Shown piece by piece: positions 10,415-64,000 of a stretch of DNA of 64,000 nt (its first letter is position 1; the number at the start of each line of letters is the position of its first letter). This stretch comes from Nitrospirota bacterium (GTDB taxonomy: Bacteria; Nitrospirota; Nitrospiria; Nitrospirales; Nitrospiraceae). A model generated the notes under the pieces. That model did no database searches and was not told the origin of the DNA. It saw only the letters and a program-made list of their open reading frames with translations. The stretch is taken from positions 124,001 through 188,000 of the forward strand of contig JAUSMA010000015.1 of assembly GCA_030645475.1 (NCBI GenBank). Reading direction: 5' to 3'. A program made the translations under genes and the position numbers.

Positions 10415-12616
10415 ATGAAAACCGCCCACATCTGTTTTCTCTGGCACATGCATCAGCCCTATTACACGGACCCGGTCGCGGGGTCTGCCAGCATGCCCTG
10501 GGTGCGGCTCCATGCCACCAAGGCCTACTACGACATGGCCTATGTACTGGAGAAGTTCCCCTCGATCAAATCCACGTTCAACTTTACCCCCTCGCTCCTG
10601 CGGCAACTGCAAGAAGTCGGATCAGGAGCCGTACGCGACCTCTTTCTCGAACATGCGCAGCGCCCGGCGGCGGATCTTCGTCCGGAAGAAAAAGCCTTTC
10701 TCATCCGCCATTTCTTCTCCGCCAATTGGGCCACGATGGTGCGCCCCCACCCGCGTTACCATGAATTGCTCGTGAAGCGCGGAACGGACGTCTCAGGCCG
10801 CGAACTGGAGCGGGTGGCGCGGCAGTTTTCCACGCAGGATCTGCTGGACTTGCAGACCTGGCACAACCTCGCCTGGTTCGGCTACGGCACCGTCAGTCGC
10901 TATCCACGCCTGGCAGCCCTGCGTGCGAAAAACCGGGGCTTTACGGAAGAGGACAAACAGGAGGTCTTGGCCCTCCAGCTCGTCGCAGTCCGGGAGATCG
11001 TGCCGCTCTATCGACGACTGCTGGAGCGTGAACAAATCGAGCTCACGACGACGCCGTTCTTTCATCCGATCCTGCCGCTCGTCATCGATACCGACTTTAC
11101 TAGACGCGCCAGACCGGACCTTCCGCTCCCCTCACGATTCCATGCGCCGGAAGATGCCGAGACGCAGCTACGGCGTGCCGTCGAGTTTCATGCCGCCACA
11201 TTCGGCCGAGCCCCGGTAGGCCTCTGGCCGTCGGAGGGCTCCGTCTGTCCGGAACTGATTCCCATGCTGCCGAAGGTCGGGCTGCGCTGGCTCGCGACCG
11301 ACGAAGGCATCCTCGCGCGTTCGCTCAACGCGGCCCAGCAACCCTGGGAACGCCACCGGGATCTCTATCAGCCCTACCAGGTCGGGCCGGACGGCCAGGA
11401 CGTCACGATGCTGTTTCGGGATCGGGAGATCTCCGACGCGCTTGGATTCGTCTACCACAAAACCACGCCTGAGATGGCGGCCGAGGATGTCCTGCGCCGG
11501 CTGCGCCAGATCATTCACGATGCGCCACAGGAACAGGTCACCATCGGGATCGTGCTCGACGGAGAAAACCCCTGGGAGCATTACCACGAGGGAGGCGAGC
11601 AGTTTCTGTCTCTCCTCTATAAGGCTTGCTCGACCGGCGCGCTCGATGGCCACGAGCTCCGCACCACCACCGCCACGATTTCCGACGCGCTCGATGCCGC
11701 GCCGGCCACCCGGCGGGTCAGCCACCTCCATTCAGGTTCCTGGATCAATCAGGACTATAAGATCTGGATCGGCCATCAGGAAGACAATCGGGGATGGGAT
11801 CTGGTGAGCCACACGCGATCCCGCCTCGCCGAGATTTCTGCGACCCTCCCCGCGGATCGGGCCCAGGCCGCCTGGGATGAGCTCTATGCCGCCGAAGGCA
11901 GCGATTGGTTCTGGTGGTATGGGGACGATTTCGATTGCGGCTACAACGAGGAGTTCGACCGGCTCTTTCGCACCCACCTTCGCAACGTCTGGACGATCGC
12001 AGGACTGACGCCGCCGGATCTCTTGAATCAAGCGATCTGTAGTCCACGCGGTATGCCGGATACAGATCTGGTGACTGCGCCGCTTGCGTTGCTGAACCCC
12101 TCCATCGATGGGCGCGTAACCGACTTTTTCGAGTGGCGCGGAGCAGGGAAGATCACGACGCAGCCGCCGCTCGGTGCGATGTGGAAAGCCGAAGGCGTAC
12201 TGACCGATATCCAGTTTGGCTGGAGTCTGGACCACCTCTATCTCCGGCTCGATCCGGACGAGCAGTCGCAGCCTCGGCAGGCAGGACTCACGGTCGAGCT
12301 GCAGCTGCACACACCCGAGCACCTCTATCGGCTGTCCTGTGCACTCGCGCCCTCAGCCACAGACCAATTTATCCTCTCGCAAAAATTGGCCAGTGGGTCG
12401 TGGCAGGAGATCGGCCCCTACTCATCGATCTGTCATCGGCAGATTCTCGAACTGGCTGTGCCGTTCAAGGACTTACAGCTCACGCCCGGGCAGGAACTCC
12501 GCATGACCATTCTGATCCTGGAACATCGCTTGGAAGTGGCACGTTACCCGCAGTACAAGCCCGCGATCTTTCTCGTGCCAGGCCCGGAGTTTGAAGCGAA
12601 TCTGTGGCGCGTATGA
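10415..12616 (+). CDS. Glycoside hydrolase family 57 (alpha-amylase/glucanotransferase type)
   Basis: A 733-residue protein whose N-terminal ~420 residues carry GH57 conserved regions. These are the HMHQPY motif at residues 11-16, GLWPSEGSV near residue 269 (with the likely nucleophile Glu) and VLDGENPWEHY near 381 (with the acid/base Asp). The C-terminal ~300 residues, after a helical region, look like a beta-rich accessory domain ending EANLWRV. There is no signal peptide, so it should act on alpha-glucans such as glycogen in the cytosol. GalT follows 96 bases downstream. Exact activity (amylase, branching or transferase) cannot be assigned. Confidence 0.88.
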   Translation: MKTAHICFLWHMHQPYYTDPVAGSASMPWVRLHATKAYYDMAYVLEKFPSIKSTFNFTPSLLRQLQEVGSGAVRDLFLEHAQRPAADLRPEEKAFLIRHFFSANWATMVRPHPRYHELLVKRGTDVSGRELERVARQFSTQDLLDLQTWHNLAWFGYGTVSRYPRLAALRAKNRGFTEEDKQEVLALQLVAVREIVPLYRRLLEREQIELTTTPFFHPILPLVIDTDFTRRARPDLPLPSRFHAPEDAETQLRRAVEFHAATFGRAPVGLWPSEGSVCPELIPMLPKVGLRWLATDEGILARSLNAAQQPWERHRDLYQPYQVGPDGQDVTMLFRDREISDALGFVYHKTTPEMAAEDVLRRLRQIIHDAPQEQVTIGIVLDGENPWEHYHEGGEQFLSLLYKACSTGALDGHELRTTTATISDALDAAPATRRVSHLHSGSWINQDYKIWIGHQEDNRGWDLVSHTRSRLAEISATLPADRAQAAWDELYAAEGSDWFWWYGDDFDCGYNEEFDRLFRTHLRNVWTIAGLTPPDLLNQAICSPRGMPDTDLVTAPLALLNPSIDGRVTDFFEWRGAGKITTQPPLGAMWKAEGVLTDIQFGWSLDHLYLRLDPDEQSQPRQAGLTVELQLHTPEHLYRLSCALAPSATDQFILSQKLASGSWQEIGPYSSICHRQILELAVPFKDLQLTPGQELRMTILILEHRLEVARYPQYKPAIFLVPGPEFEANLWRV

Positions 12617-12712: not shown

Positions 12713-13717
12713 ATGCCTGATTTACGACGTGATCCGATTGTCGGCCGGTGGGTGATTATTTCAACGGAACGGAATGCCCGGCCACACGACTTCGTTCCCG
12801 TGCATGCCGCACGGCCATTGGCGGCGTCTCTCTGCCCCTTTTGTCCAGGCCAAGAACGATTGACGCCGAAAGAAATCATGGCCTATCGTCCGCAACCGCT
12901 GGAGCCCAACGGCCCGAACTGGACCGTGCGCGTCGTGCCGAACAAGTTCCCCGCGCTCCAAGTCGAAGGCGGCCTCGACCGCGAAGGCCTCGGCCTCTAT
13001 GACCGGATGAACGGGATCGGCGCCCATGAAGTGATCATCGAAACCCCAAGCCACACCGATAGCCTAGCCGACATGCCGACGAAGCGAATCGAGGATGTCC
13101 TATGGGCCTATCGCGATCGCATGATCGACCTGAAGAAAGACCTGCGGTTCCGCTACATCCTGATTTTCAAAAACCAGGGTGCGTCAGCCGGCGCCACACT
13201 CGAACACAGCCACTCACAACTCATTGCCCTGCCGATTATCCCCACCAGCGTCCAGGAAGAACTCGATGGTTGTCGGGCGCACTACGAACAGAAAGAGCGC
13301 TGCATCTATTGCGACATTCTCCGACAGGATCTCGCAGATGGCGATCGCATCGTGGCGGAGAATCCGGAGTTCGTCTGCGTCACGCCATTTGCGCCACGCT
13401 TTCCCTTCGAAATGTGGATTCTCCCCAAGCGCCATGCCGGCTACTTCGAGGAAAGCCAAAAGACCCAATTCGAGTTTCTCGCGCCGATTCTCTCCGAAAC
13501 ACTCCGACGCATGAACAAGGTGCTGGCCAACCCCTCCTACAACTTCATCTTGCATAGCTCCCCCCTCCACGAGAAGACCGGGGACTTCTACCATTGGCAT
13601 ATCGAAATCATTCCCAAGCTGACCCAGGTGGCCGGCTTCGAATGGGGCACGGGATTCTATATCAATCCTGTGGCACCGGAAGAATCGGCGAAATTTCTGC
13701 GCGAAGCAGCGATCTAA
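12713..13717 (+). CDS. galT: Galactose-1-phosphate uridylyltransferase
   Basis: A 334-residue HIT-superfamily nucleotidyltransferase. It opens MPDLRRDPIVGRWVII, as GalT proteins do. CPFCPGQE near residue 43 is one zinc-binding pair, EHSHSQLIALP near residue 165 holds the active-site histidine environment, and CIYCDI and HWHIEIIPK follow. The start at 12713 has a strong GGAGG ten bases upstream, which beats the upstream in-frame start at 12686. GalT exchanges UMP between UDP-glucose and galactose-1-phosphate in the Leloir pathway. Related bacterial enzymes act on ADP-sugars, which would fit the neighbouring alpha-glucan gene. Confidence 0.9.
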   Translation: MPDLRRDPIVGRWVIISTERNARPHDFVPVHAARPLAASLCPFCPGQERLTPKEIMAYRPQPLEPNGPNWTVRVVPNKFPALQVEGGLDREGLGLYDRMNGIGAHEVIIETPSHTDSLADMPTKRIEDVLWAYRDRMIDLKKDLRFRYILIFKNQGASAGATLEHSHSQLIALPIIPTSVQEELDGCRAHYEQKERCIYCDILRQDLADGDRIVAENPEFVCVTPFAPRFPFEMWILPKRHAGYFEESQKTQFEFLAPILSETLRRMNKVLANPSYNFILHSSPLHEKTGDFYHWHIEIIPKLTQVAGFEWGTGFYINPVAPEESAKFLREAAI

Positions 13718-52379: not shown

Positions 52380-52452
52380 GCGTTCGGGTGCCTCAGATCA
52401 ACCCGCATGGTCTGTTGCAAATATGCCAGTTATGGCATAGCATGAAAATGTA

Positions 52453-52572
52453 ATGAAGCCGGTTCATGTTGTTGGAACGTCTCGCGAGGATCTGCGTGAG
52501 CTCCCTGAGCCGGTGCAGGAAACCGCTGGCTTTCAGCTGTTCAAAATTCAACAAGGGAAAAAGCCTGATGAG
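52453..52572 (+). pseudogene. Truncated RelE/Gp49-type toxin
   Basis: The first ~40 codons (MKPVHVVGTSREDLRELP, VQETAGFQLFKIQQGKKPDE) match the N-terminus of the phage Gp49-like/RelE toxin family. The conserved remainder of the family (the G-V-R-E-I-R and F-R-V-I-Y strands) is missing. After about 52572 the frame carries out-of-frame antitoxin sequence to 52707. An internal deletion joined toxin start and antitoxin start. Toxin activity should be lost. Confidence 0.72.
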
Positions 52573-53281
52573 AGGAAGGCCTGTGAAACGCGCCACGGTG
52601 ACGAAGGGCAGTGGGAATATCTTTCGAGACATGGGGTTTTCGGAAGAACGGTCCGCGGAACTGATTCTGAAAAGCAGTTTACTGCAAGCGCTTCAGGAGA
52701 CGATTAGGGGGCGAGGCTGGAAGCAGGCGGAAGCGGCAACCCAACTCGGTATTGACCAAGCCAAGATCTCGAAGATCCTCGCCGGCCAGATGGCCGGGTT
52801 CTCGGTTGAACGCCTGGTTCATTTTCTCTCGTTACTAGGCCAAGATGTAGAAGTGACCGTGCAGCGGGCTCCGCGCGGACAGCGATACGGAACAGTTCGC
52901 GCGAAGGGATCCAGACGAGCGAGTACGGTTTATGGCAGCTCGATCGAAGAACCTGTCATGATCAAAAACGGCATGCGGCCGGTTCATCCAGGAGAAATCC
53001 TGTTCGAGGAATTCATGAAGCCGACAGAGCCGCCGATCAATGCCAATATTCTTGCCAAGGCCCTCGAAGTTCCGGCGAACCGGATCACGGCAATTATCAA
53101 AGGCCAGCGAGGGATTACGGGCGATACCGCGGTACGTCTAGCGACGTTTTTCAACACCACCGCTGAATTCTGGATGAACCTGCAGAAAACCTATGAGCTG
53201 CGCCTGGCGGAAAGAGCTCTGCCTGGGATGGTCATCAAGCACATCGAACAGCACAGGGATGCGCTGGTATCGGCCGGATGA
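52568..53281 (+). CDS. Fused double antitoxin (XRE-type plus HigA-type)
   Basis: A 237-residue protein from ATG 52568. Residues ~10-100 are the antitoxin that usually partners Gp49-like toxins (TKGSGNIFRDMGF, WKQAEAATQLGIDQAKISKILAGQ, FSVERLVHFLSLLGQDVEV). After a basic linker, residues ~130-237 are a HigA/VapI-type helix-turn-helix antitoxin (MRPVHPGEILFEEFM, NRITAIIKGQRGITGDTAVRLATFF, AEFWMNLQKTYEL). A second ATG near 52960 marks where an independent HigA gene could once have begun. No intact cognate toxin for either half is present. Confidence 0.85.
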   Translation: MRGRPVKRATVTKGSGNIFRDMGFSEERSAELILKSSLLQALQETIRGRGWKQAEAATQLGIDQAKISKILAGQMAGFSVERLVHFLSLLGQDVEVTVQRAPRGQRYGTVRAKGSRRASTVYGSSIEEPVMIKNGMRPVHPGEILFEEFMKPTEPPINANILAKALEVPANRITAIIKGQRGITGDTAVRLATFFNTTAEFWMNLQKTYELRLAERALPGMVIKHIEQHRDALVSAG

Positions 53282-53669
53282 TGGTGCGACATTCCATATT
53301 GGGCTATCTCAGTCCGATGGAGTTCGAAATACACGTTGCGTAGGCTGGTGTCAGCCAAACCGGCAGCATCCCATAGTCTGTCTGGTCTATCTGGTTGGGT
53401 TTTCGATTCGGCCAACGCAACAAACGGGACAGGCCTTACAAACTTGCGCCCCGTCTCGCTCGTCCAGTCTGTCTCGCATTTCTCGCGGCTCCGTTCTTGG
53501 ACACGCGCAGAGGGAGACCCTCTAAAGGAAGAAAATAGAAGAATAGTGGTCTCAGTAGCAGAAAAGACTCCCGTTACATGTTCCGCGCTTCAATATGTCA
53601 ATAGTCCTGCCTGACTCCGACTCCGGATCTTGGCAGCCATTTAGGCAGGAAATGTTCCTGTACTGTACC
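53282..53669. other. Gene-free stretch between antitoxin and GHKL ATPase genes
   Basis: No plausible gene in either strand. It includes a T/G-rich phrase (agtctgtctggtctatctgg at 53378-53397) of the low-complexity type common between Nitrospira genes. The convergent genes on both sides should end here, but I see no clear terminator. Confidence 0.45.
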
Positions 53670-54692
53670 TCATCTGTCCAGAAAGTCCCTGGCCAACATT
53701 TGGGAAGCAGTGGATGCTGACAACACTGCACTTTTCCCAAATCTTGCCGCTACTTCATAACCCTCTTCACGAAACTGCTTAAGCTTTGAACTAATATCCT
53801 GAATAGAATCCACACAAAGGCTCAGACGAAGGGCTGTACCCTCAAATGGAATCTGCACATCAGTTTTATCTTTTGCCTTAAGGAGTAATCCACAATCGCC
53901 GCTTGCAATAAAAAAATTACCTCCATTTCTACAAAGGCGGCTGGTCATATACAGTCCAAACCCTGAATTAGCCCATACATTATATCTAGCTTCATTTCTT
54001 TGCTTATGAGCTTTCCCTGAAATTCCTGGCATCAATGCGAGACGTAACGCATCCCCACCTGAATCAAATTGTAGCTTCGGATTTTCCCTGAGGGCAGCAC
54101 CAATTCCAATACCACGATCAACAAGTCCTAATTCGACAGTGCCCTTCTTAGGCCAGTATTGAGCACAAAGCCCGAACTGACTGGACTCACTATGTTCAAC
54201 AACATTTCGCATAATTTCTCGAAGCGAGTAGGCTAGAGCATCGAATAGGGATCCAGAATCATTTTGACAAAGAATACTGGAGATATCTTGGCTTCTAGAT
54301 TCAATTGTCTCAGCGACTGCCACATGAGATTCCGCAGCTTCTCGCCTAAGCTGATCACACTCAAAGAGAGTTATCGGAAAATGAGTTTGACTGCCAGGCG
54401 CCTCTCCGGGAGATTTCCCGAAATCCACACGGAAAGCCCTGAAAAACCCCATATGAGCTGCATAGCCCATGTGTCGATGATTACTAACTGAAAATTTAGC
54501 GGACGGATATTTGTCCACACATCGTTGAACTTCACTCGAGATATACAGGAGTGAAAATGGCGAAACCCAGCCTACTTTGCCAAAGTCAAAAAGGTACTCA
54601 TCAGCTGGAGGTAAGGATCTCAACTGTATGGCAAACTCTATGCTTCCAGCAAGATTTAGCCCATTCGGAACATTCACAACATATTGCTGCAT
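53670..54692 (-). CDS. GHKL ATPase with STAS-like flanking domains
   Basis: A 340-residue protein. Residues ~1-100 look like a STAS-type domain (YVVNVPNGLNLAGSIEFA, DEYLFDFGKVGWVSPFSLLY). Residues ~150-290 are a histidine-kinase-like ATPase fold with N-box LREIMRNVVEHS, G1 box LVDRGIGIG and G2 box SGFGLYMTSRL. No phospho-acceptor His domain or receiver is present. The C-terminal ~50 residues again look STAS-like. Codon third positions are more AT-rich than in the core genes, suggesting separate origin. Such proteins occur as regulators or stand-alone defence-island genes; function here is unknown. Confidence 0.75.
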   Translation of the reverse strand: MQQYVVNVPNGLNLAGSIEFAIQLRSLPPADEYLFDFGKVGWVSPFSLLYISSEVQRCVDKYPSAKFSVSNHRHMGYAAHMGFFRAFRVDFGKSPGEAPGSQTHFPITLFECDQLRREAAESHVAVAETIESRSQDISSILCQNDSGSLFDALAYSLREIMRNVVEHSESSQFGLCAQYWPKKGTVELGLVDRGIGIGAALRENPKLQFDSGGDALRLALMPGISGKAHKQRNEARYNVWANSGFGLYMTSRLCRNGGNFFIASGDCGLLLKAKDKTDVQIPFEGTALRLSLCVDSIQDISSKLKQFREEGYEVAARFGKSAVLSASTASQMLARDFLDR

Positions 54693-54745
54693 GCCATTTT
54701 CCTATGGGGAGCAAGATCGAACAGGCGCGGGGTCACATCTGCAAA

Positions 54746-54957
54746 TCAGAGACTCTTCAGCCAAGAGTGGACAGCCTCCGCTATGAAATCCTCGATGACT
54801 CCGTGCCATACCAGGATTCTTGGCAGCATAGAGAGACAGCTTTCGCTGATTTCCGAAAATGTTTTTCCCTCCCCCACTAGACAGTTCGGTCGAAAGTTAC
54901 ATCATCAAGGAATACCCCAAGTATTTCTCGTTCTTCGACGAACTTGGTGCTCTCCAT
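54746..54957 (-). pseudogene. Frameshifted ~70-residue gene of unknown family
   Basis: From ATG 54957 (AAAGGCG upstream) the frame reads MESTKFVEEREILGVFLDD, VTFDRTV and stops. Adding one base near 54882 gives a smooth continuation LVGEGKTFSEISESCLSMLP, RILVWHGVIEDFIAEAVHSW, LKSL to a stop at 54746, for a total of exactly 71 codons including stop. It lies 53 bases upstream of the GHKL ATPase gene in the same direction, so it may be a damaged partner. The break falls in a G-rich run (GTGGGGGAGGG), so assembly error is possible. Confidence 0.5.
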
Positions 54958-55067
54958 CGCCTTTCAATGCTAGTCACTTGGGCCATTCGGTTGAAACAAG
55001 ACTGGGAAAATCCGATCGAGGCTGCCCCCCAGACCTCGTGAGATGGCATGCAGCTGGCAGGAGAGAA

Positions 55068-56669
55068 TCAATTAGACGGGACTCTCGGAAATTGGTGCAA
55101 CAACACTTTTCCGACAGTTTGAATCGCAGCGCCAACCTCTGCCTGGATCAAGCCCGATGCACCGGCATGACTGAGTTTATTCAGAACGGTTGACCGCATA
55201 GTCTCGACATCGTTTTCCAAAATTTCAGGGATGAGATCGAGAACATGGGAGCCTCTGTGCCTCTGCTCCTCGCGCTCCCGTTGGCGCTGGATGATCCCAT
55301 CCCACAAAACCCCAGCACCGATTTTGTCTGCATCTGGTTTAAAGGGCACCTTGATACCATGCTTCTCGGACACAATGCGGAGCTTCCACTCGAATGCGGA
55401 TCGCGCATAAACAGCCGCTGCCTTCAGGTCTCCGCTAGCGAGATGGGTCTTTGCCCGCTCCAAGTCACTCGCTGATGATTTCAGCTTGGGCACCAGTTGG
55501 CCGGTATCTTCGTCGGCTAGCAGTTCACGGTGGATCCATCCGTCTCTCTCGCGGAGATGTCCTCGCGCGAGATCGAACCAGACCCGGTCGTGAGTAAGCA
55601 GGAATATCTGGTAATTCTTGAAGCCCTCACTGGTCAGGATACGTAAAACTGGTAAGCGGTTTTGGAGCTCTAGCCCTATCAGCGCATCGTCCAGCACGAG
55701 AAAGCGCGGATACTCAGGATTGGCATAGTCATTGTCCGAGAGATGAACTCCGGCGAGGAAAAGGCAAATACTGAGCGCGGACAGCCTTGCCTCATTGAGG
55801 AACAGGTGGTGGTCAAGTACCTGCTTGCCACGAAAAGTGATCTCTGGAACTAAATCGGCGCCTTTGAGCTGGAGCGAGTCTTTTTCCCACGTGAGCGACA
55901 CCGGCTGGAACTTGATGGTGAGCTTGTGGTTCTCGAAGTGATTGAGGAACTCGGTGACCTTCGCTTCCAACTGCGGAAGGATTGCGTTGAAAGCCTGACT
56001 GAAGGCATACGCAGCGTCGTTAGCGAGGCGTAGCGCCCACTTATATCGGCTGGGTGGTCGCGTCTCCCACACTCTGCGCATGAGATCGCCCATGGTTGAT
56101 TCGCCTCCGACTGAGGTCGTGACTCGTACGCCTGCAAGAATCGCCAATGTAACCAAGTCAAAGAGTTGAGCCTCCAAACCCTCCGACTCCGCTCCATAGA
56201 TGGTGTCATGAATCCGAGGGCCACGGTTTGAGCGAGAGAGCGGGGCGGACAGTAGATTCGTCCGAAGCATGACCCGATAGTCCAGGAACCCTGAACGGCG
56301 GGCTCCGTCCACCAACAACGACCGCAACTCCGGGGTAATGGGCCCTGTAGTTGGATCCTTGGGAATAGTCAATGGATGGCCGTCGGCAGCGTTCCAATGG
56401 TACTCCCGATCATGAGGAGTTCCCGTAGCGTCGGTCCCTTTGAGCCACAGCAACACATGGGCGGTGCGGGTTTCCAGAGCGAAATGATTACGATGGTTAG
56501 CGATGGCGTCGCCACGCTCTTCGAAGAAACGTTTCAGAGCAAAGTAGAGGGATGATTTGCCTGCACCGTTTTCACCGTGCAGCAGCAGATTTTTTCCGCC
56601 ATTTAGATCGAGTTCGAAACACTCGTCGAAGGCGCGGAAGTTCTGCAGACTTATTCGCGTGATTTTCAC
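55068..56669 (-). CDS. SMC/RecF-like AAA ATPase, fourth gene of the cassette
   Basis: A 533-residue protein starting at GTG 56669 inside the stop of the upstream gene (GTGA overlap). It opens MKITRISLQNFRAFDECFEL, like RecF/SMC ATPases. Walker A is HGENGAGKSSLYF at residues 31-43. A signature-like LNEARLSALSICLFL, Walker B RFLVLDDALIGLE near 325 (Asp-Asp in place of Asp-Glu) and H-loop LLTHDRVWFD follow. There is no long coiled coil. The last ~130 residues are helical (AAAVYARSAFEWKLR, LNKLSHAG) and may be a HEPN-like or dimerisation domain. A role as DNA-end or phage sensor is inferred from context. Confidence 0.88.
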   Translation of the reverse strand: MKITRISLQNFRAFDECFELDLNGGKNLLLHGENGAGKSSLYFALKRFFEERGDAIANHRNHFALETRTAHVLLWLKGTDATGTPHDREYHWNAADGHPLTIPKDPTTGPITPELRSLLVDGARRSGFLDYRVMLRTNLLSAPLSRSNRGPRIHDTIYGAESEGLEAQLFDLVTLAILAGVRVTTSVGGESTMGDLMRRVWETRPPSRYKWALRLANDAAYAFSQAFNAILPQLEAKVTEFLNHFENHKLTIKFQPVSLTWEKDSLQLKGADLVPEITFRGKQVLDHHLFLNEARLSALSICLFLAGVHLSDNDYANPEYPRFLVLDDALIGLELQNRLPVLRILTSEGFKNYQIFLLTHDRVWFDLARGHLRERDGWIHRELLADEDTGQLVPKLKSSASDLERAKTHLASGDLKAAAVYARSAFEWKLRIVSEKHGIKVPFKPDADKIGAGVLWDGIIQRQREREEQRHRGSHVLDLIPEILENDVETMRSTVLNKLSHAGASGLIQAEVGAAIQTVGKVLLHQFPRVPSN

Positions 56670-57946
56670 TGCGATGTGCCTACTGAATCGTTTTCCCTGG
56701 CGGCTTTGAACTCATTGTAAGCCTCTTCCCAATTGATGCGCGGAAACGCCTGCTGAACCGATTCCAGAAAGTCGGGCCGGTCCAGCGTCTCGAACGTCAT
56801 ATCCTTATATCTCTCTTCCAAGGTCATACTGTGGATCAAATCCTTCGCGGCGGGGAAGACGGTAGAGATTTCCTCCTCGATCCATGACCGGATCGCGGCC
56901 TCATCGGTGCTTGGATTCAAGAGGCTTCCCAAGAGAGCATCTGGTGGGTTCTTAACAGCCAGCGGCAGATAATAATCCACGACCTGCTTCTCCGATTCAT
57001 CGAGTTTCGTCTGTAGCTCAGCTTCTACCTTCTTTTGATGGGCCTCAAGCTTGGCACGCAGGCTCACTATGCGTTTGGTGAGGTAGGGCTTGGCCGATTT
57101 CAACACAACCCTGCCGTGATCCTTCCCCAGCGACGGCGTGAAATTCTTTCGGATGTCGTTCAACTCATCCTCCAGGATCTTCGATGATAGTGAGCTGCCT
57201 TTCTCGATCAGATCGAAGGTGGTCTTGAGCTTGCCCTCCAGGTCTTTGGATGCGCCGAGGTTTTGCAGAGCCTTCGGAATGCGCACCCGGTGCCGCTGCA
57301 CGGCCGCGCCGGTAAGGGACAGTTCCACGTATTGCAAGTAGGGCTCGAAGACGCGCACCTGTCGGACGACGTCGAACTTGACGGGCGGGGCCGTCTCAAT
57401 TGCTGCCTTTACTATATCGAAATGCGTTCTCTCGATAGGACTCATGCCCAGCTCCGTCTGGAGTTGGGCGATTTTCTTGGTCTCTTCCGGTGTTGCAGCC
57501 TGCTCAATAGCTTCCTTCTGAGCGGTAGAAGAAAGATGGATTGCCAGCGTCTTCACCTGTCCGGAAGACAACTCCACGGCATTCGGCGTCTCGTCGCACT
57601 GCGGCTCCTGTTCGAGGTAGAGGGCCGTTGGGGTAAAAATCCAGCCTCGGTCGTCCACGATGAGGATGCCGCAACGCAAGCCGGGGGAATGGGTGGGTTC
57701 AATGTCGGCCTTCCGGAGCATTTCAACCCCTTCGAGAGAACCGTATCCCATACGCAGGGTGTGTTCATCAAAATCGATGCTGACGGTTAATGACAGTCGA
57801 ACCAACTCGCCCACTCGCTCGACAAGGGCTTTGGCTGTCTCAATCTGGATACCTGGAGCGGCGTAAATGACTCGACATTTAGCACTGCGAAACAGGGAGG
57901 CTATCCGACGAGAAGACAAGGCGGAAAGAGTGGATTGCGTGCTCAT
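56666..57946 (-). CDS. Phospholipase-D-fold protein without HKD residues, third gene of the cassette
   Basis: A 426-residue protein overlapping genes on both sides (ATGA, GTGA). Residues ~15-150 look like one PLD half: CRVIYAAPGIQIETAKAL, LTVSIDFDEHTLRMGYGS and the strand GLRCGILIVDDRGWIFTP, where the usual His-x-Lys is Arg-x-Gly. Residues ~165-330 are mixed helices including a Lys/Glu-rich coiled region, and the C-terminus is helical (FPRINWEEAYNEFKAARE). Catalysis by the PLD mechanism is unlikely; a structural or DNA-binding role is inferred. DISARM also carries a PLD protein (DrmC), but that one is shorter. Confidence 0.7.
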   Translation of the reverse strand: MSTQSTLSALSSRRIASLFRSAKCRVIYAAPGIQIETAKALVERVGELVRLSLTVSIDFDEHTLRMGYGSLEGVEMLRKADIEPTHSPGLRCGILIVDDRGWIFTPTALYLEQEPQCDETPNAVELSSGQVKTLAIHLSSTAQKEAIEQAATPEETKKIAQLQTELGMSPIERTHFDIVKAAIETAPPVKFDVVRQVRVFEPYLQYVELSLTGAAVQRHRVRIPKALQNLGASKDLEGKLKTTFDLIEKGSSLSSKILEDELNDIRKNFTPSLGKDHGRVVLKSAKPYLTKRIVSLRAKLEAHQKKVEAELQTKLDESEKQVVDYYLPLAVKNPPDALLGSLLNPSTDEAAIRSWIEEEISTVFPAAKDLIHSMTLEERYKDMTFETLDRPDFLESVQQAFPRINWEEAYNEFKAARENDSVGTSQ

Positions 57947-60900
57947 GCCTTGCCCTCGATAATGCGGATGATATCGAGGGTCTGAAGTTTGTCGAGAGCC
58001 ATGCGGAGAGGATGGTCGCCATCGTACAGAGTCTCGAATATCTGGCGAAGCCGCGCGAGCTGGTCTGGTTCGAGAATGCTTTCGAGATCCGGCAGCCCGG
58101 CCTGCTCCACCAGCTTAAACAATCGAAGACCCGCCCCGTGCACTTCCTCCGGGAAATACAGCTCGTACACCAGTCCGTTCAACACCCGTTCCCAATACGC
58201 CAACATCAACGGATCACGTGTGGATAGGTTCTCAGCGTGGTCGGCATAGTAGCGATGGAGACTGATCAACCATTGCACGACACTGGAGACAACTTGCTCT
58301 AACTCTCGAACCGATAGCGGGACTGGAATGCGCTCGATGAATCGTTTGCCGTAGGACCAATAACCACCGCGAAATGGAGTGCTAATGTTACTGATGAAAT
58401 AGTCGCAAATCCTTGAGTTCAGCAGTGCTTGGAGGAAATGAATCGGCCTGTTGCGGGCTTCACTATTCCAACGGACGCCGTAATACGGCCCATTACCGCC
58501 ACCCGTAAAATAGAGACGGGATGCGTCAAAGGAAAACCTAGGCGATTGAGAAATCACTTGAACAATCAGCTTCGGGGAATCGAAAAGCGTCAAGTTTTTC
58601 CGGTAGATATACCCATACCATTCCAGACTGTCTGCTTTGCCGGATTCACGAGCCCGCAAATCCGCTTCGTTCGACTTTAAGTATTCCCAAAGCTTCGGGC
58701 ATGCGCTTTTTAGCTCTTTCGCCGAAACGAGCTTCGCTTCGTGTTCGCTAAGTATGTAGGGGAAAATTAACCAGTGGTTAGAAGCTGGTGCTCGGTAAGG
58801 AGCGAGCGAGACATCGGCAAGGAAAGGCTTTAGGAATGTCGTTTCAACCTCCCATTGCACTCCATCCCTAGATTCAACTTTCGCTAGCCCAGACGAAGGA
58901 ACAGCCCGTTCACGAAGCACGAAAAGCCTATCAGCACTCGTTTGTAGTCCAACGAAAATCGAGGCGACATCGCCGAGCCGTGTGGGACATTGGTCTAGTT
59001 TCGAAAAAACTGCTGCGTCTTTACCAACTGTAAAGTTCCATTCCGATCCAGTAATGCTTTCGGGTTGGAAGCGCCCATCGACACCGGACAGAGTCGCCTT
59101 CCATGCTTGGAAATCGTGTGCTTTGACAAAACGGCAATCGGGGCTTCCTCCGTTCGCCAAGAACAGCAAGCATGTGTAAATCGTCGCTCCTGGAAAGACC
59201 TGTTCATCGCCAAAATGGACCACATGTCGGAGGCGCTTTCTTCTCGATATAAGCTCACGGAGCGGTTCGCCATATTGGGAGTTGAAAAACTTGTGGGGGC
59301 AAATATAAGCCAGGTGACCGTCCGATTTTAGCAGGCGCAAACCGGCTTCGATGAAAACGACGTAGAGGTCATAATTGCCCTTGGCTGCGCTGGCATAATG
59401 ATCTTTGAAGAAGGTGACGACCTTAGGGTCCTTCTTCTTCAACGTCTGGATGCGCACATATGGTGGGTTGCCTATAACAATGTCAAAGCCGCTCTCGACT
59501 TCTTGTGATTCTGAGGCCGTGAGTTCGGTTTGTCCGGCCGCTTCATTAACAAGTGTGAGGTTACCGAGGAGGGTCGCCGGGGCTTTACCGTTAATCTTCA
59601 CCTTGCCTACAGGAAAGCCGAACATCCATTCTGAGTCGAAAAATGGGGCGAAAGCATTCTGGTCATAGGGGTCCCAAGCTGCGAGCTGGCGGGCGGCTTG
59701 CTTAGGAATCGCGTGCTCGCGTTCGAGTAGCTGGGCTATCTCCTGGCGCTTGGTGGCGTCGGCCTCGCGCCATTTGCGTTTGTTGCCAGGGTCGCGGGCG
59801 TTGAAGTGTTCGTGGCGGATACGAGTGAGGTCGGCGCGGAGTTGGTCTATTTCGCCTGAGTAGAGATCACTCTCGGCCTTCTCGATGGGGATAAGAGTAT
59901 CGGCGGCGACGAGTCGAGTCTCGAGGTTCGGCAGCGGTCGGACACCGAGATTTTTTACCTGATGGTCAACCTTCTGGTCTACGACCAAGGAAATAAAGAA
60001 GCGGAGCTTGGCGATCTGGACGGCGACGGGTTGAATATCGACGCCGTAAATTGCGTTTTCAATGAGGTAAAGCTTGCGGGCAAAGTCGAGGGCGTGGAAA
60101 CGGGTATCGAATGATTTCTCAATGTCGGCGATGCGCGCGTCGCAGGCGCCGATTTCCTCCTTGGGTGCGCCGGACTCCTCAAGTAGAGCTCGATAGCGGC
60201 GGGCCTCAGCAAGACGGTCGCGTTTCCAGGATTCGTTATTGGGGTCGAGCTTCTGGAGCAGGTCCACAAGACGGTGGAGCGCTCCCATGGGGAAGGCGCC
60301 GGAACCGCAGGCGGGGTCGAGGATTTTTACGCGGCCGATGGCGGCGATGAGGGCATCGCGGGTATCGGGCCGGATATCCCGGAGCGTAGCCTTGTTGGAG
60401 AAGAGGTCTTCCAGCGCGCCCTTACAGCGAGGTACCTGGCTCCCGAGGTAGGACTTGAGGGCCTCGTCCACCATGTAGGCAACGATCTCGCGCGGGGTGT
60501 AGAAAGCGCCAAGAGCCTTGCGGGCAGTCGTGCGAGTGTCCTCATTGAAGGAGGCGAGGAGGTTTTCGAAAACCTTCCCGAGGAGTTCTGGATCGAGGGC
60601 GATTTCCTCCTCAAGAGGGGTGTTTTCTTCGATGGTGAACTTGTAGCGGGAGAGAATTTCTATCAGGCCACGGACCTTGGCCTTCTTCGAGCGGGCAGTG
60701 CGGCTGTCTTCATCGCCATAGTCCTTCGAAAGGTCCACTGTGCGCTCTGGGCCGAAGAAGAGGTCATTGGGCAGATGGCAAGCAAGCTTCGGGTTGTCGG
60801 AGAAGCCATCAAGAATGAAGTTGTCCTTCTTCTGGCCGGTTTTGTCGTCGAGGCAGTCGAAGAGGCCGCCGTTCAGGAATGGCACACGGGCAGAGAGCGC

Positions 60901-61989
60901 GGTCCAATCGGCAGAATCACGAAATTCAACCTCGTACCGCCAGAGATTGGTAATGCCAAAGTTTTTATCGTAACGCTGACCGTCCTTCTTTTTTTCGCGG
61001 AAGGCGCGCTGGTCGGACGGCATGTTGAGAGTGCCAAAGAAAAGGTTTTGCAGGACGGCGTGATAGTAGGTAGAGGCTGCTGGTGACAGATCCTTGAGAA
61101 GCTTTTTCAATGTGTAGTCGCGGAATAGCTCAGCAGGCAGCAGGCGCTTCTCGACGAGGAACCAGCAGAAAATGAGACGGGTGAGCAGGCGGATGAGGAA
61201 GAGGGATCTTTCCTCCTCTGTGTCGCAATGCTGCGGGAGGCGGATGGTGCCATCGTCCACCTGATGATGCGCCCAAAAGTACCAGTCGGCGATCTCGCGG
61301 TAAAAGTCGTTGGAGAGTGCGTAGGAACCGAGACGCTTTTGCCAGGCGGTGTGAAGAGCGACGAAGTTGGAGACGCCAAAGTCAGTGTCGAGATTCGTCA
61401 AAGCGAAATCGTTGAGGATTTCGAGGTGGGCTCGAATGGGATCGGCAAAGGCAACGTCCTTGATGAGGGTGACTTTTTCCAGGACATCGCGGGTTTGGTC
61501 GCGCTTGTGCAAGCGGCGGTTAATGACGGCGAGCGTAAGGGTATCGCCGTGTCTGAATAAGATAAGGGCCGGCATGGCGAAGAGCTTATTCACCTCGCGG
61601 GTAATGTTGGCAAGAACGGTGCGAGTGTAGTGACTGCTCTTGAGTTCAATCGCAATAAAGAGGTAGCTCTCAATGACGGCGCCGTCAAAAGAGCCCTTGC
61701 TGTCGAAAAGAACCTTTTGAGAACCGGCGGCGCGTATTTCGTCGTCGGTGAGCTGGAATAGAAAGTCGATGGATCTCCATTCCTCGGGGATGGAGAGCTT
61801 GTAGTTGAAGGTTTTGCCTTGAGCGAAGTTGGCGAGGAACTGCTCGCTGGTGTTGGGCGTGAGCTTGAGGCGCTTTTGGCTGATATAGCCGAGGGACTCG
61901 AAGAGGGACGTGGCAGCGGTGGCCAATGGCTGATTTTCGAATTTCTTGAGCGTGGACTCGATGGCCTGCTTTATTTCTTGAACTTTCAT
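57943..61989 (-). CDS. Eco57I-type adenine-specific DNA methyltransferase with N-terminal nuclease-like motif
   Basis: A 1348-residue N6-adenine methyltransferase. Motif I is KILDPACGSGAFPMG near residue 557 and motif IV is IVIGNPPYVRIQ near residue 840, in gamma-type order. Residues ~1040-1300 look like a TaqI-like target-recognition region (SPKLIVQVISQSPRFSFD, NRPIHFLQALLNS). Near the N-terminus, Asp102 and ELK at 115-117 (FDGAVIES, FIAIELKSSH) fit a PD-(D/E)xK-type nuclease core. Size and layout resemble DrmMI, PglX or type IIG enzymes. The start overlaps the helicase stop and the stop overlaps the PLD-like start, both as ATGA. Confidence 0.92.
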   Translation of the reverse strand: MKVQEIKQAIESTLKKFENQPLATAATSLFESLGYISQKRLKLTPNTSEQFLANFAQGKTFNYKLSIPEEWRSIDFLFQLTDDEIRAAGSQKVLFDSKGSFDGAVIESYLFIAIELKSSHYTRTVLANITREVNKLFAMPALILFRHGDTLTLAVINRRLHKRDQTRDVLEKVTLIKDVAFADPIRAHLEILNDFALTNLDTDFGVSNFVALHTAWQKRLGSYALSNDFYREIADWYFWAHHQVDDGTIRLPQHCDTEEERSLFLIRLLTRLIFCWFLVEKRLLPAELFRDYTLKKLLKDLSPAASTYYHAVLQNLFFGTLNMPSDQRAFREKKKDGQRYDKNFGITNLWRYEVEFRDSADWTALSARVPFLNGGLFDCLDDKTGQKKDNFILDGFSDNPKLACHLPNDLFFGPERTVDLSKDYGDEDSRTARSKKAKVRGLIEILSRYKFTIEENTPLEEEIALDPELLGKVFENLLASFNEDTRTTARKALGAFYTPREIVAYMVDEALKSYLGSQVPRCKGALEDLFSNKATLRDIRPDTRDALIAAIGRVKILDPACGSGAFPMGALHRLVDLLQKLDPNNESWKRDRLAEARRYRALLEESGAPKEEIGACDARIADIEKSFDTRFHALDFARKLYLIENAIYGVDIQPVAVQIAKLRFFISLVVDQKVDHQVKNLGVRPLPNLETRLVAADTLIPIEKAESDLYSGEIDQLRADLTRIRHEHFNARDPGNKRKWREADATKRQEIAQLLEREHAIPKQAARQLAAWDPYDQNAFAPFFDSEWMFGFPVGKVKINGKAPATLLGNLTLVNEAAGQTELTASESQEVESGFDIVIGNPPYVRIQTLKKKDPKVVTFFKDHYASAAKGNYDLYVVFIEAGLRLLKSDGHLAYICPHKFFNSQYGEPLRELISRRKRLRHVVHFGDEQVFPGATIYTCLLFLANGGSPDCRFVKAHDFQAWKATLSGVDGRFQPESITGSEWNFTVGKDAAVFSKLDQCPTRLGDVASIFVGLQTSADRLFVLRERAVPSSGLAKVESRDGVQWEVETTFLKPFLADVSLAPYRAPASNHWLIFPYILSEHEAKLVSAKELKSACPKLWEYLKSNEADLRARESGKADSLEWYGYIYRKNLTLFDSPKLIVQVISQSPRFSFDASRLYFTGGGNGPYYGVRWNSEARNRPIHFLQALLNSRICDYFISNISTPFRGGYWSYGKRFIERIPVPLSVRELEQVVSSVVQWLISLHRYYADHAENLSTRDPLMLAYWERVLNGLVYELYFPEEVHGAGLRLFKLVEQAGLPDLESILEPDQLARLRQIFETLYDGDHPLRMALDKLQTLDIIRIIEGKA

Positions 61990-64000
61990 GACTGTTTGAT
62001 GACGAGCCAGGTGACGAGTTCGAGATGAGTCTTTTCGTGAACCTGTTCCTGTTCATCAGGCAAAACAAAGCCACGACCAACTTGGAGGCCCGAGGCGGCG
62101 CGTTTACGGAACGTCGCAACGACAGAGTCTACAGCTTTTTGCAGAAGCTTGTCGTAAGCTTTCATGTCGCTGCCGTGGTTCGTCTCCTGGTCGAAGAGGT
62201 TGCAAAGCTGCGTGTACGGCTCGCTCTTGCCAGAACAAAGCATGCGGTAGATATCAAGAATCTGCTTCGGATGTGCAAAGCCAAAACGGACATTACCATC
62301 GTCGAGAACATAGACCAAGAAGTAGGGCTGGAGCGGATTGATTGCCTCGGTGGCGTCGCCCTTGGTAGCACCAGTAACACTCGACCTCTTTTCCTGCCGA
62401 AAGCAAAAGATGACGCCGGGCGCGATGACTTTATATTCCAGGTTAGGCGGCACTACGGTGTAGAGGCCAAACGGAGCATCTTTAAGCACGTCACGATTGG
62501 CCTCGATGTATTTCAAAAGCTCAAGACGGAAGTCGTCAAGGGTGAACTCTGTGAGAGAGACGCTGTCGCCAAGGTCCTCCAAGTCAAGCACTTCATCTTT
62601 GAGCTTGAGCAGTTGCTTGTCGCGGTAGCGGAGGTCTTCGTGGATGAGTTCCTCAATTTCTTCGCTCTGAAGAATGTTGTCCTCGACAGTGGCGGCAATG
62701 TCCACGAGCGCCATACGAGCTTCCACACGATTTTTGAGATTGATGTATTTATTGAGGTCCTCGGTCGGCCAGAAATTGACGAGCTGGACTGAGTGGCTGG
62801 CGCTGCCGATTCGGTCAATGCGACCAAAGCGCTGAATGATACGCACAGGGTTCCAGTGAATGTCGTAATTGATGAGGTAGTCGCAATCCTGAAGATTCTG
62901 TCCTTCGGAGATGCAGTCCGTAGCAATTACAAGATCGATCTCCCCTTCCTGTGGCATGGTCGGAATCTTGTTTCGCTCCTTTGAGCGCGGAGAGAAATTG
63001 GTGAGAATCTGGTTGAAGGCTCTATCCCCAAAAGTAGTGCGGGTCTCTCCACCGCCGCAAACGAGCGCGATGTGGATGCCCAGATCTTTGCTGGCCCACT
63101 GCACAAGCGATTCGTAGAGGTAGGTCGCAGTATCGGCAAAGGCGGTAAAAACGAGCACTTTCTTGTTCGACTGGCCAAGCTTGTTGGTGGTTGGCTTGGC
63201 AACCTTTTCCGCGATGAGCTTCTTCAGGTCCTTGAGTTTTGCGTCTGTTTCTGGGGTAACGTTCTGCGCTGCATTCAAGAGTATGCGTAGCTGGTCCTTG
63301 TCCTTCTTTAGGTCCTTGAGCCAGTTCCTTCCACGGTCTAGTTCTAAATGCTCAAGACGATACTTCAGCTTGCCGCCGACCTGCAGGGCCTCTTCGAGCT
63401 CCTCGTCTTCGGCAGGATCGCCAAGATCGAATTCAATCTCGCTTGCGCCAGGACTCCCCGAGGCACCCGCTATGTAGGCATGAATTTTCTTTTCAAGGCC
63501 CTCAATCTTGTCGATCGTGCGTTCCATCGTGATCTCAAAGGACCTTACGGAGCTTTCAAGACGCTTCAGAAAGTTTACCTTCATCATGCCGATTAGGTAG
63601 TTCTCACGATCGGCTTGGCTGAACGGGTCACGGGTGCTCGTCTGATAATTCCCCTGAAACTGTTTCTGAACGTATTTGGATGGATTGAACAGTGAAAGCT
63701 TGTAGCCCGCAATTTCGTCGTTAATCTTGTCGTAGGAAAGGAATCGTCCTTGGGTGTCGATGGCCGAATAGACCGAAATTGGTTTTTTCCGCTGAGGGAA
63801 CCCACCCAATTGCGCAACTGTCTCTTTATAATATTTCTGGATGTGCTTGCGCGAGCGGGCGATGGTGAGTTCATCCAGAAGCTTGAAGAAGGCGGCACTA
63901 AGCCTCTCCAACAGATCCCCAGTTCTTCGTTCCGAACTTTGTTTACGCGCCCAAAGTGAAAAGACCTTCTGGGCTGCGGTCAGCGTATCCTTAAGACTGC
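61986..64000 (-). CDS. SNF2/RapA-type helicase, 5' part missing
   Basis: The frame is open without a stop to the right edge, so the N-terminal ATP-binding half lies outside; an internal TTG at 63911 is not a real start. The ~671 codons present hold the second helicase domain: KVLVFTAFADTATYLYESL, then DLVIATDCISEGQNLQDCD, NYDIHWNPVRIIQRFGRIDR (motifs V and VI with the arginine fingers). A long helical insert precedes it. The C-terminal ~200 residues are an unassigned domain. It resembles the DISARM class 1 helicase DrmD. It overlaps the methyltransferase gene by four bases. Confidence 0.88.
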   Translation of the reverse strand, partial: SLKDTLTAAQKVFSLWARKQSSERRTGDLLERLSAAFFKLLDELTIARSRKHIQKYYKETVAQLGGFPQRKKPISVYSAIDTQGRFLSYDKINDEIAGYKLSLFNPSKYVQKQFQGNYQTSTRDPFSQADRENYLIGMMKVNFLKRLESSVRSFEITMERTIDKIEGLEKKIHAYIAGASGSPGASEIEFDLGDPAEDEELEEALQVGGKLKYRLEHLELDRGRNWLKDLKKDKDQLRILLNAAQNVTPETDAKLKDLKKLIAEKVAKPTTNKLGQSNKKVLVFTAFADTATYLYESLVQWASKDLGIHIALVCGGGETRTTFGDRAFNQILTNFSPRSKERNKIPTMPQEGEIDLVIATDCISEGQNLQDCDYLINYDIHWNPVRIIQRFGRIDRIGSASHSVQLVNFWPTEDLNKYINLKNRVEARMALVDIAATVEDNILQSEEIEELIHEDLRYRDKQLLKLKDEVLDLEDLGDSVSLTEFTLDDFRLELLKYIEANRDVLKDAPFGLYTVVPPNLEYKVIAPGVIFCFRQEKRSSVTGATKGDATEAINPLQPYFLVYVLDDGNVRFGFAHPKQILDIYRMLCSGKSEPYTQLCNLFDQETNHGSDMKAYDKLLQKAVDSVVATFRKRAASGLQVGRGFVLPDEQEQVHEKTHLELVTWLVIKQS

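Follow-up and report, generated by a model that had tools for sequence, protein, structure and literature searches.

What is the run of four genes at the right-hand end of a 64,000-nucleotide stretch (hereafter the window) of contig JAUSMA010000015.1 from a Nitrospirota genome (assembly GCA_030645475.1, positions 124,001 to 188,000), in which a helicase gene is followed by genes for a large DNA methyltransferase, an unclassified protein and an ATPase? The initial annotation, made from the sequence alone, proposed a self-contained, four-gene restriction-like or anti-phage system. We found instead that only the helicase and the methyltransferase are constant among relatives, and that the remaining positions are filled by different genes in different loci, many of them for modules predicted to kill the cell or to sense. 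On balance, we favor reading the locus as an undescribed, ATP-dependent restriction-modification (RM)-like defence island with swappable back-up effectors.

The constant pair and its exchangeable neighbours

Four open reading frames (ORFs) lie in series on the minus strand of the window, with a 4-nucleotide overlap at each junction (GTGA, ATGA and ATGA), as the initial annotation had described:

55068-56669, minus strand: ABC/RecF-type ATPase gene, 533 residues, GTG start
56666-57946, minus strand: gene for a pseudo-PLD (phospholipase D-fold) protein, here called X, 426 residues, ATG start
57943-61989, minus strand: N6-adenine methyltransferase gene, 1348 residues, ATG start
61986 to beyond 64000, minus strand: helicase gene, whose 5' part runs past the window edge to equivalent position 65312-65408

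Because the ORFs are long and overlapping, their motifs intact and their homologues full length, we regard chance ORFs as excluded. Profile matches confirmed the earlier domain calls of an SNF2 helicase, an Eco57I methyltransferase and a RecF/SMC-like ATPase, and when each protein was searched no named family covered all four genes.

Helicase homologues in viral contigs split into two groups, A and B, and the window belongs to group B, in which the helicase is accompanied by an Eco57I methyltransferase. We collected 25 distinct loci where the methyltransferase gene adjoins the helicase gene (L002, which is the locus of the window, L016, L040, L090, L094, L095, L096, L154, L167, L168, L169, L197-L202, L204, L205, L209, L211, L214, L215, L223 and L225). 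They span Verrucomicrobiota, Kiritimatiellota, Nitrospirota, Chloroflexota, Pseudomonadota and viral contigs, and the distribution is patchy: when genomes were searched with the methyltransferase alignment, members turned up in 23 of 289 Verrucomicrobiota, 2 of 398 Pseudomonadota and 2 of 61 relatives, the window's own genome included. The constant part is an HKD-SNF2 helicase with an Eco57I-type N6-methyltransferase, while the other slots vary and hold the following cargo:

Window-type ABC-ATPase: 7 of 25 loci (L002, L090, L094, L095, L167, L169 and L225, the last apparently frameshifted)
SIR2-like protein: 2 of 25 (L201, Pfam SIR2_2, E value 2.3e-5; L040, recognised by eye from GAGAS and downstream motifs, with no Pfam match)
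DUF3800 protein: 4 of 25 (L016, fused to the methyltransferase; L154, L202 and L204, by similarity)
Fic protein: 4 of 25 (L204, L205, L209, L214)
AbiEii protein: 2 of 25 (L205, L211)
GmrSD: L205
Schlafen AlbA_2 protein and YhcG nuclease: L200
M78-type peptidase, just below the cut-off: L197
X: 4 of 25 (L002, L016, L040, L090)

Some relatives, including L199 and L168, consist of the core only. The order helicase-methyltransferase-X-ATPase was not seen in the other loci of the 25; viral contig L090 has the order helicase-methyltransferase-ATPase-X, and a more distant Parabacteroides plasmid carries SNF2 and methyltransferase genes with a hypothetical gene and one for a TIR protein. Thus, the initial annotation was largely right about the domains but drew the unit wrongly: it comprises two core genes plus swappable cargo, the ATPase and X being optional.

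The same counts bear on whether the window encodes a true four-subunit complex, in which the ATPase would scan or clamp DNA, as proposed for DndD/CxC or BrxC, and license the helicase-nuclease. The four genes are translationally coupled, helicase, methyltransferase and ATPase occur together in 7 loci, with X as well in IMGVR_3300046005, and systems joining an ABC-ATPase to an HKD-SF2 helicase, such as PbeABCD, exist (PMC10853773). Against this, 18 of the 25 core loci are without this ATPase and 21 are without X, and the slot can be taken by SIR2, DUF3800 or AbiEii genes, which have no ATPase fold. We therefore judge such a complex unlikely.

Predicted nuclease, methyltransferase and accessory proteins

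Read from the assembly beyond the window, the full helicase ORF encodes 1140 residues and reaches window-equivalent position 65408; Met33 (~65312) is the likelier start, since most homologues align from residues 28-39. The N-terminal part, which lies outside the window, matched PLDc_2 (E value 1.9e-10) and an NgoFVII-type PLD profile (E value 4.6e-6), and is followed by the SNF2 motor. Both the HKD/PLD motif (H154-G-K156, G171-S-S-N174 and E190, in 1140-residue numbering) and the motor motifs (K309, D392-E393) are intact, and the SNF2 and Helicase_C domains were confirmed. The locus does, then, carry a predicted nuclease, which was not visible to the initial annotation because it lies beyond the window edge.

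Among defence models the helicase matched best the PADLOC C3a139 'HKD+Snf2' model (453 bits), with the DrmD and HmaA models far lower. The C3a139 operon, comprising a helicase-related gene, DUF4391, a site-specific methyltransferase and a type III Res, resembles our group A (~40 loci, and plasmids as well), in which the helicase is found with DUF4391, an N6/N4 methyltransferase (Mod) and a type III Res containing an endonuclease domain. The window helicase is homologous to these proteins along almost all of its length, at 38-48% identity to members of group A, and the two kinds of system also have in common their coupling to methylation and their carriage on plasmids and prophages. The window core differs in its active-looking HKD domain, its single large Eco57I methyltransferase and its lack of a Res. 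All 20 group-B helicases whose N-terminus is complete have HxK...GSxN, and none of 40 group-A helicases does, the PLD domain of the latter being dead. Since group A, devoid of this motif, brings an endonuclease in Res, the HKD domain is the likely restriction nuclease of group B, and this comparison is the strongest sequence argument for that assignment. Which partner carries the nuclease thus appears to differ between the groups, the sister comparison predicting that it is the helicase HKD domain in group B and the Res subunit in group A. A group-A operon on a Citrobacter plasmid (L228, 8989-21261; helicase, DUF4391, site-specific methyltransferase and DEAD/DEAH helicase) contains an inserted ATP-dependent endonuclease gene and a DUF2130 gene, and therefore the sister system also bears inserted cargo.

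The methyltransferase has an Eco57I core (PF07669, 136 bits against a cut-off of 25; DPACGSG at 558 and NPPY at 841) and a C-terminal TaqI_C-like specificity domain at residues 1133-1223, which scored just below its cut-off (23.3 against 26.5 bits). It reached 339 bits with the PADLOC IIG model, and five relatives from different phyla aligned over the full length at 31-41% identity with DPA-GSGAF and NPPY invariant. An AlphaFold2 model of residues 1-490 (predicted local distance difference test score, pLDDT, 72.5) matched an MmeI-type helical connector at residues 184-470 (5hr4, Z 7.8). An N-terminal alpha/beta domain at residues 110-225 gave a weak DUF4391 match (E value 9e-4, below the gathering cut-off); the first 180 residues had no clear fold match in the model comparison, and E-x-K was not conserved among the aligned relatives. 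We therefore predict a type IIG/IIL-like N6-adenine methyltransferase, which shares its core, connector and specificity domain with enzymes such as MmeI and Eco57I, but has no recognisable catalytic PD-(D/E)XK at its N-terminus and is coupled to an HKD helicase. Some methyltransferases carry ~130-270 residues inserted at the connector/methyltransferase boundary, after window residue ~524 (L214, 9251-9984; L213, 10177-10994; L223, 9644-10032). In L016, two fragments of a window-type methyltransferase C-terminus (11266-11553 and 12713-12829; 56-67% identity) lie downstream of X; the local methyltransferase has a different, DUF3800-fused C-terminus, and the fragments look like traces of C-terminal domain replacement.

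The ATPase is an ABC/SMC (RecF)-type P-loop protein with Walker A (GENGAGKSS), Walker B (LVLDD) and an H-loop (THD), and Walker A, the LDD of Walker B and the H-loop are kept across four aligned relatives. Its sequence contains no C-x-C. The helical C-terminal ~150 residues include an N-x(3)-H that is conserved in relatives, and two homologues only gave weak matches to HEPN/DUF4145 in this tail (E values 0.03-0.04). A single-sequence scan of viral contigs with the ATPase returned no match, and tblastn against plasmids returned one full-length relative, in Nostoc, adjoining a truncated TaqI-like methyltransferase fragment. The initial annotation cast this protein as a sensor, which is plausible but unproven; since SIR2, DUF3800 and AbiEii genes take its place in other loci, a back-up effector fits at least as well.

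X had no match in Pfam, NCBIfam or PADLOC. Its AlphaFold2 model (pLDDT 87.9) has a PLD fold at residues 1-180, followed by a long helix and a C-terminal domain of unassigned fold. Foldseek alone gave weak PLD matches (E values 0.004-0.2), and realignment with VIA-align was clearer, pairing residues 3-173 with the nuclease Nuc (Z 10.9) and giving Z 9.9 for TrmBL2 and FAM83B. No HxK...GSxN occurs within the first 200 residues of 61 homologues, which bears out the earlier description of a PLD fold without catalytic residues. Arg91, invariant in 61 of 61, stands at the expected start of the catalytic HxK strand, by our reading of strand order, in place of the catalytic His region; X also differs from Nuc, TrmBL2 and FAM83B in its extra C-terminal half, and D58, G67 and G69 are likewise invariant. 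The natural inference is a role in binding rather than catalysis. We rejected a profile match of X to apolipoproteins, which reflects the coiled-coil character of the long helix rather than homology.

A five-sequence profile of X identified 75 loci among 84,980 genomes, and a scan of viral contigs gave 5. On an Acinetobacter plasmid X lies within BREX-1, flanked by pglX and pglZ; it was also found in BREX-3-like loci with DUF6079 and PglZ, in type I RM loci with HsdR and HsdS, with SNF2 and a DUF1156 methyltransferase, and with SNF2, an Eco57I methyltransferase, an AAA_15 ATPase and an RNA ligase. A motif expression meant to pick out methyltransferases close to X proved too stringent, with 11 of 70 loci, and the large gene nearest to X was scanned with Pfam instead; among 63 such neighbours, helicase, Res, HsdR, Eco57I, DUF1156 and BrxL were the commonest families. 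On a tree of 61 X sequences, five context labels required 11 changes, against a minimum of 4 and a mean of 19 after shuffling, and the four X genes of group B required 3; X has therefore moved between systems repeatedly. In a Limnohabitans operon of SNF2, Eco57I and X genes (L062), the RNA ligase gene (PF09414; 9143-9979) adjoins the AAA_15/21 ATPase gene, which suggests RNA damage and repair cargo.

Known systems and competing explanations

DISARM and BREX, both set aside by the initial annotation, were rejected here as well. The core of DISARM is DrmA-DrmB (PMC9142583). Class 1 (DrmD with DrmMI) resembles the window in that an SNF2 helicase adjoins a large N6-methyltransferase, but the window helicase has a fused HKD nuclease and no DrmA/DrmB beside it: MZB/DUF1998 (PF09369) was absent from the whole genome, while the same profile did match in 8 control genomes, and the helicase scored 158 bits with NF038317 (DrmD) against a cut-off of 610. 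PglZ (PF08665) was also absent genome-wide, and the best PglX score of the methyltransferase (NF033452) was 77 bits against a cut-off of 500. The neighbourhood to the right of the window contained nothing drmA-, drmB-, pglZ- or brxC-like.

The nearest published architecture that we found is that of Type-2 BR systems, with an HKD-Swi2/Snf2 helicase, an N6-methyltransferase, DUF499 and DUF3780 (PMC12839542). Hma/Type-2 BR systems, which are DUF499-centred and BREX-related, share with the window such a helicase, an N6-methyltransferase and an ATPase (PMC12839542), but the window ATPase is ABC-type and the helicase gave 80 bits with the HmaA profile versus 453 with C3a139. We rejected this assignment because DUF499 (PF04465) was not found in the genome; it was also missing from 10 of 12 core-bearing genomes examined. 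DUF3780 had no Pfam match in the four genes, to which that search was limited. CxC ABC-ATPase (PbeABCD) systems have HKD-SF2 helicases and C5/N4 methylases (PMC10853773). They resemble the window in combining such a helicase with an ABC-ATPase, but the window has an Eco57I N6-methyltransferase, no small RHH/DndE gene was seen in its operon, and its ATPase is without the CxC hook, on which ground PbeABCD was rejected. No small partner gene was present in the overlapping operon at all, although no search with a DndE profile was made. Lamassu was rejected too, as the LmuB profile covered only residues 222-375 (51 bits) and no LmuA match was obtained among the scanned island genes. In the literature searched no paper names this gene combination, though others may; none dealt with C3a139 or HKD+Snf2, and none relevant dealt with DUF4391 or DUF3800.

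The earlier view of an RM-like, defence-type locus is thus supported; that it defends the host, what each part does and in what order are all inferred from sequence. The methyltransferase would probably recognise its sequence through the TaqI-like domain and mark host DNA, as its intact motifs indicate, and its N-terminal domain, given the DUF4391 resemblance, probably docks it to the helicase. From the motifs and the sister system, the helicase would probably engage unmarked DNA, translocate and cut with its HKD domain. The accessory slot, whose contents are swapped, would hold back-up effectors, to judge from the families found there; should restriction fail, the ATPase would most likely halt growth, possibly by means of its tail acting as a HEPN-like RNase. 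X would be a portable accessory that unrelated methylase-based systems have repeatedly taken up, probably as a sensor or adaptor that binds nucleic acids or ligands, and this is the weakest step. By joining a restriction-like core to a slot for effectors, this one operon family would connect RM with modules of abortive infection (NADase, RNase, Fic).

A bolder version, which we offer tentatively and rather doubt, is that a two-gene sensor core of HKD helicase and IIG methyltransferase controls a set of exchangeable suicide effectors (HEPN-ATPase, SIR2, Fic, AbiEii, DUF3800). It would constitute a distinct methylation-guarded immunity, in which pseudo-PLD proteins serve type I RM, BREX and SNF2-methylase systems alike as a general sensing or adaptor module. 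Pfam, NCBIfam and PADLOC contain no profile of the pseudo-PLD family; since it turns up in both type I RM and BREX loci, a function established for it would apply to several systems.

Several points weigh against an undescribed defence island with swappable effectors. The presence of X in 4 and of the ATPase in 7 of the 25 loci leaves a dedicated role of either unproven, and some X loci have no same-strand large neighbour, which means that X may act outside RM systems. The assignments of HEPN to the ATPase tail and of DUF4391 to the methyltransferase N-terminus lie below curated cut-offs, and a 2020 survey of ABC-ATPase conflict systems may already mention the architecture. We nevertheless consider it very unlikely that the locus is one of stand-alone epigenetic methylation, its helicase serving repair or chromosome maintenance rather than defence: an SOS cluster of YedK, UmuD and UmuC does adjoin the island, but the patchy distribution, low GC content, occurrence in viral contigs, intact HKD domain and toxin-type cargo of relatives all argue against it. 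Least credible is that a larger system of BREX/DISARM type has lost its other genes and left this locus defective or in decay, for although X occurs inside BREX-1 (pglX-X-pglZ) and the methyltransferase resembles PglX over its core, all four ORFs and their motifs are intact, the compact pair recurs in 25 loci without adjoining BREX/DISARM genes, and both core families are distinct from the BREX/DISARM ones.

The island and its surroundings

The genome carrying the window (3.75 Mb, 99.9% complete) most likely belongs to Nitrospira, its genus-mates including a Nitrospira lenta metagenome-assembled genome. The four genes lie within the following feature:

52400-64000, no strand: left part of a low-GC island, which continues to window-equivalent ~66700

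In 1-kb windows the GC content of the island is mostly 0.47-0.55, with one value of 0.58, against ~0.577 in the flanks; we take the island to be acquired. When scanned for promoters and terminators, the region upstream of the helicase did no better than shuffled sequences. A same-strand ORF of 134 residues lies 625 nucleotides upstream of the helicase gene (L002, 14035-14439, minus strand); it bears a likeness to an HhH/EndoIII-type fragment, with no profile match and no homologue in related loci. Beyond it, the divergent SOS cluster flanks the island, with a YedK-type SRAP protein, UmuD and UmuC encoded consecutively (L002, 14786-17206; named by eye from sequence).

At the other end, a 271-residue ORF (52466-53281, plus strand) encodes tandem antitoxin-type helix-turn-helix domains (HTH_37 and a HigA-like HTH_3), with no obvious toxin ORF adjoining it. 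A 340-residue protein with a likeness to GHKL-type (histidine-kinase-like) ATPases is encoded 375 nucleotides downstream of the ATPase gene (53670-54692, minus strand). It had no Pfam match and no homologue in any locus fetched, and its gene is possibly the fifth of the island.

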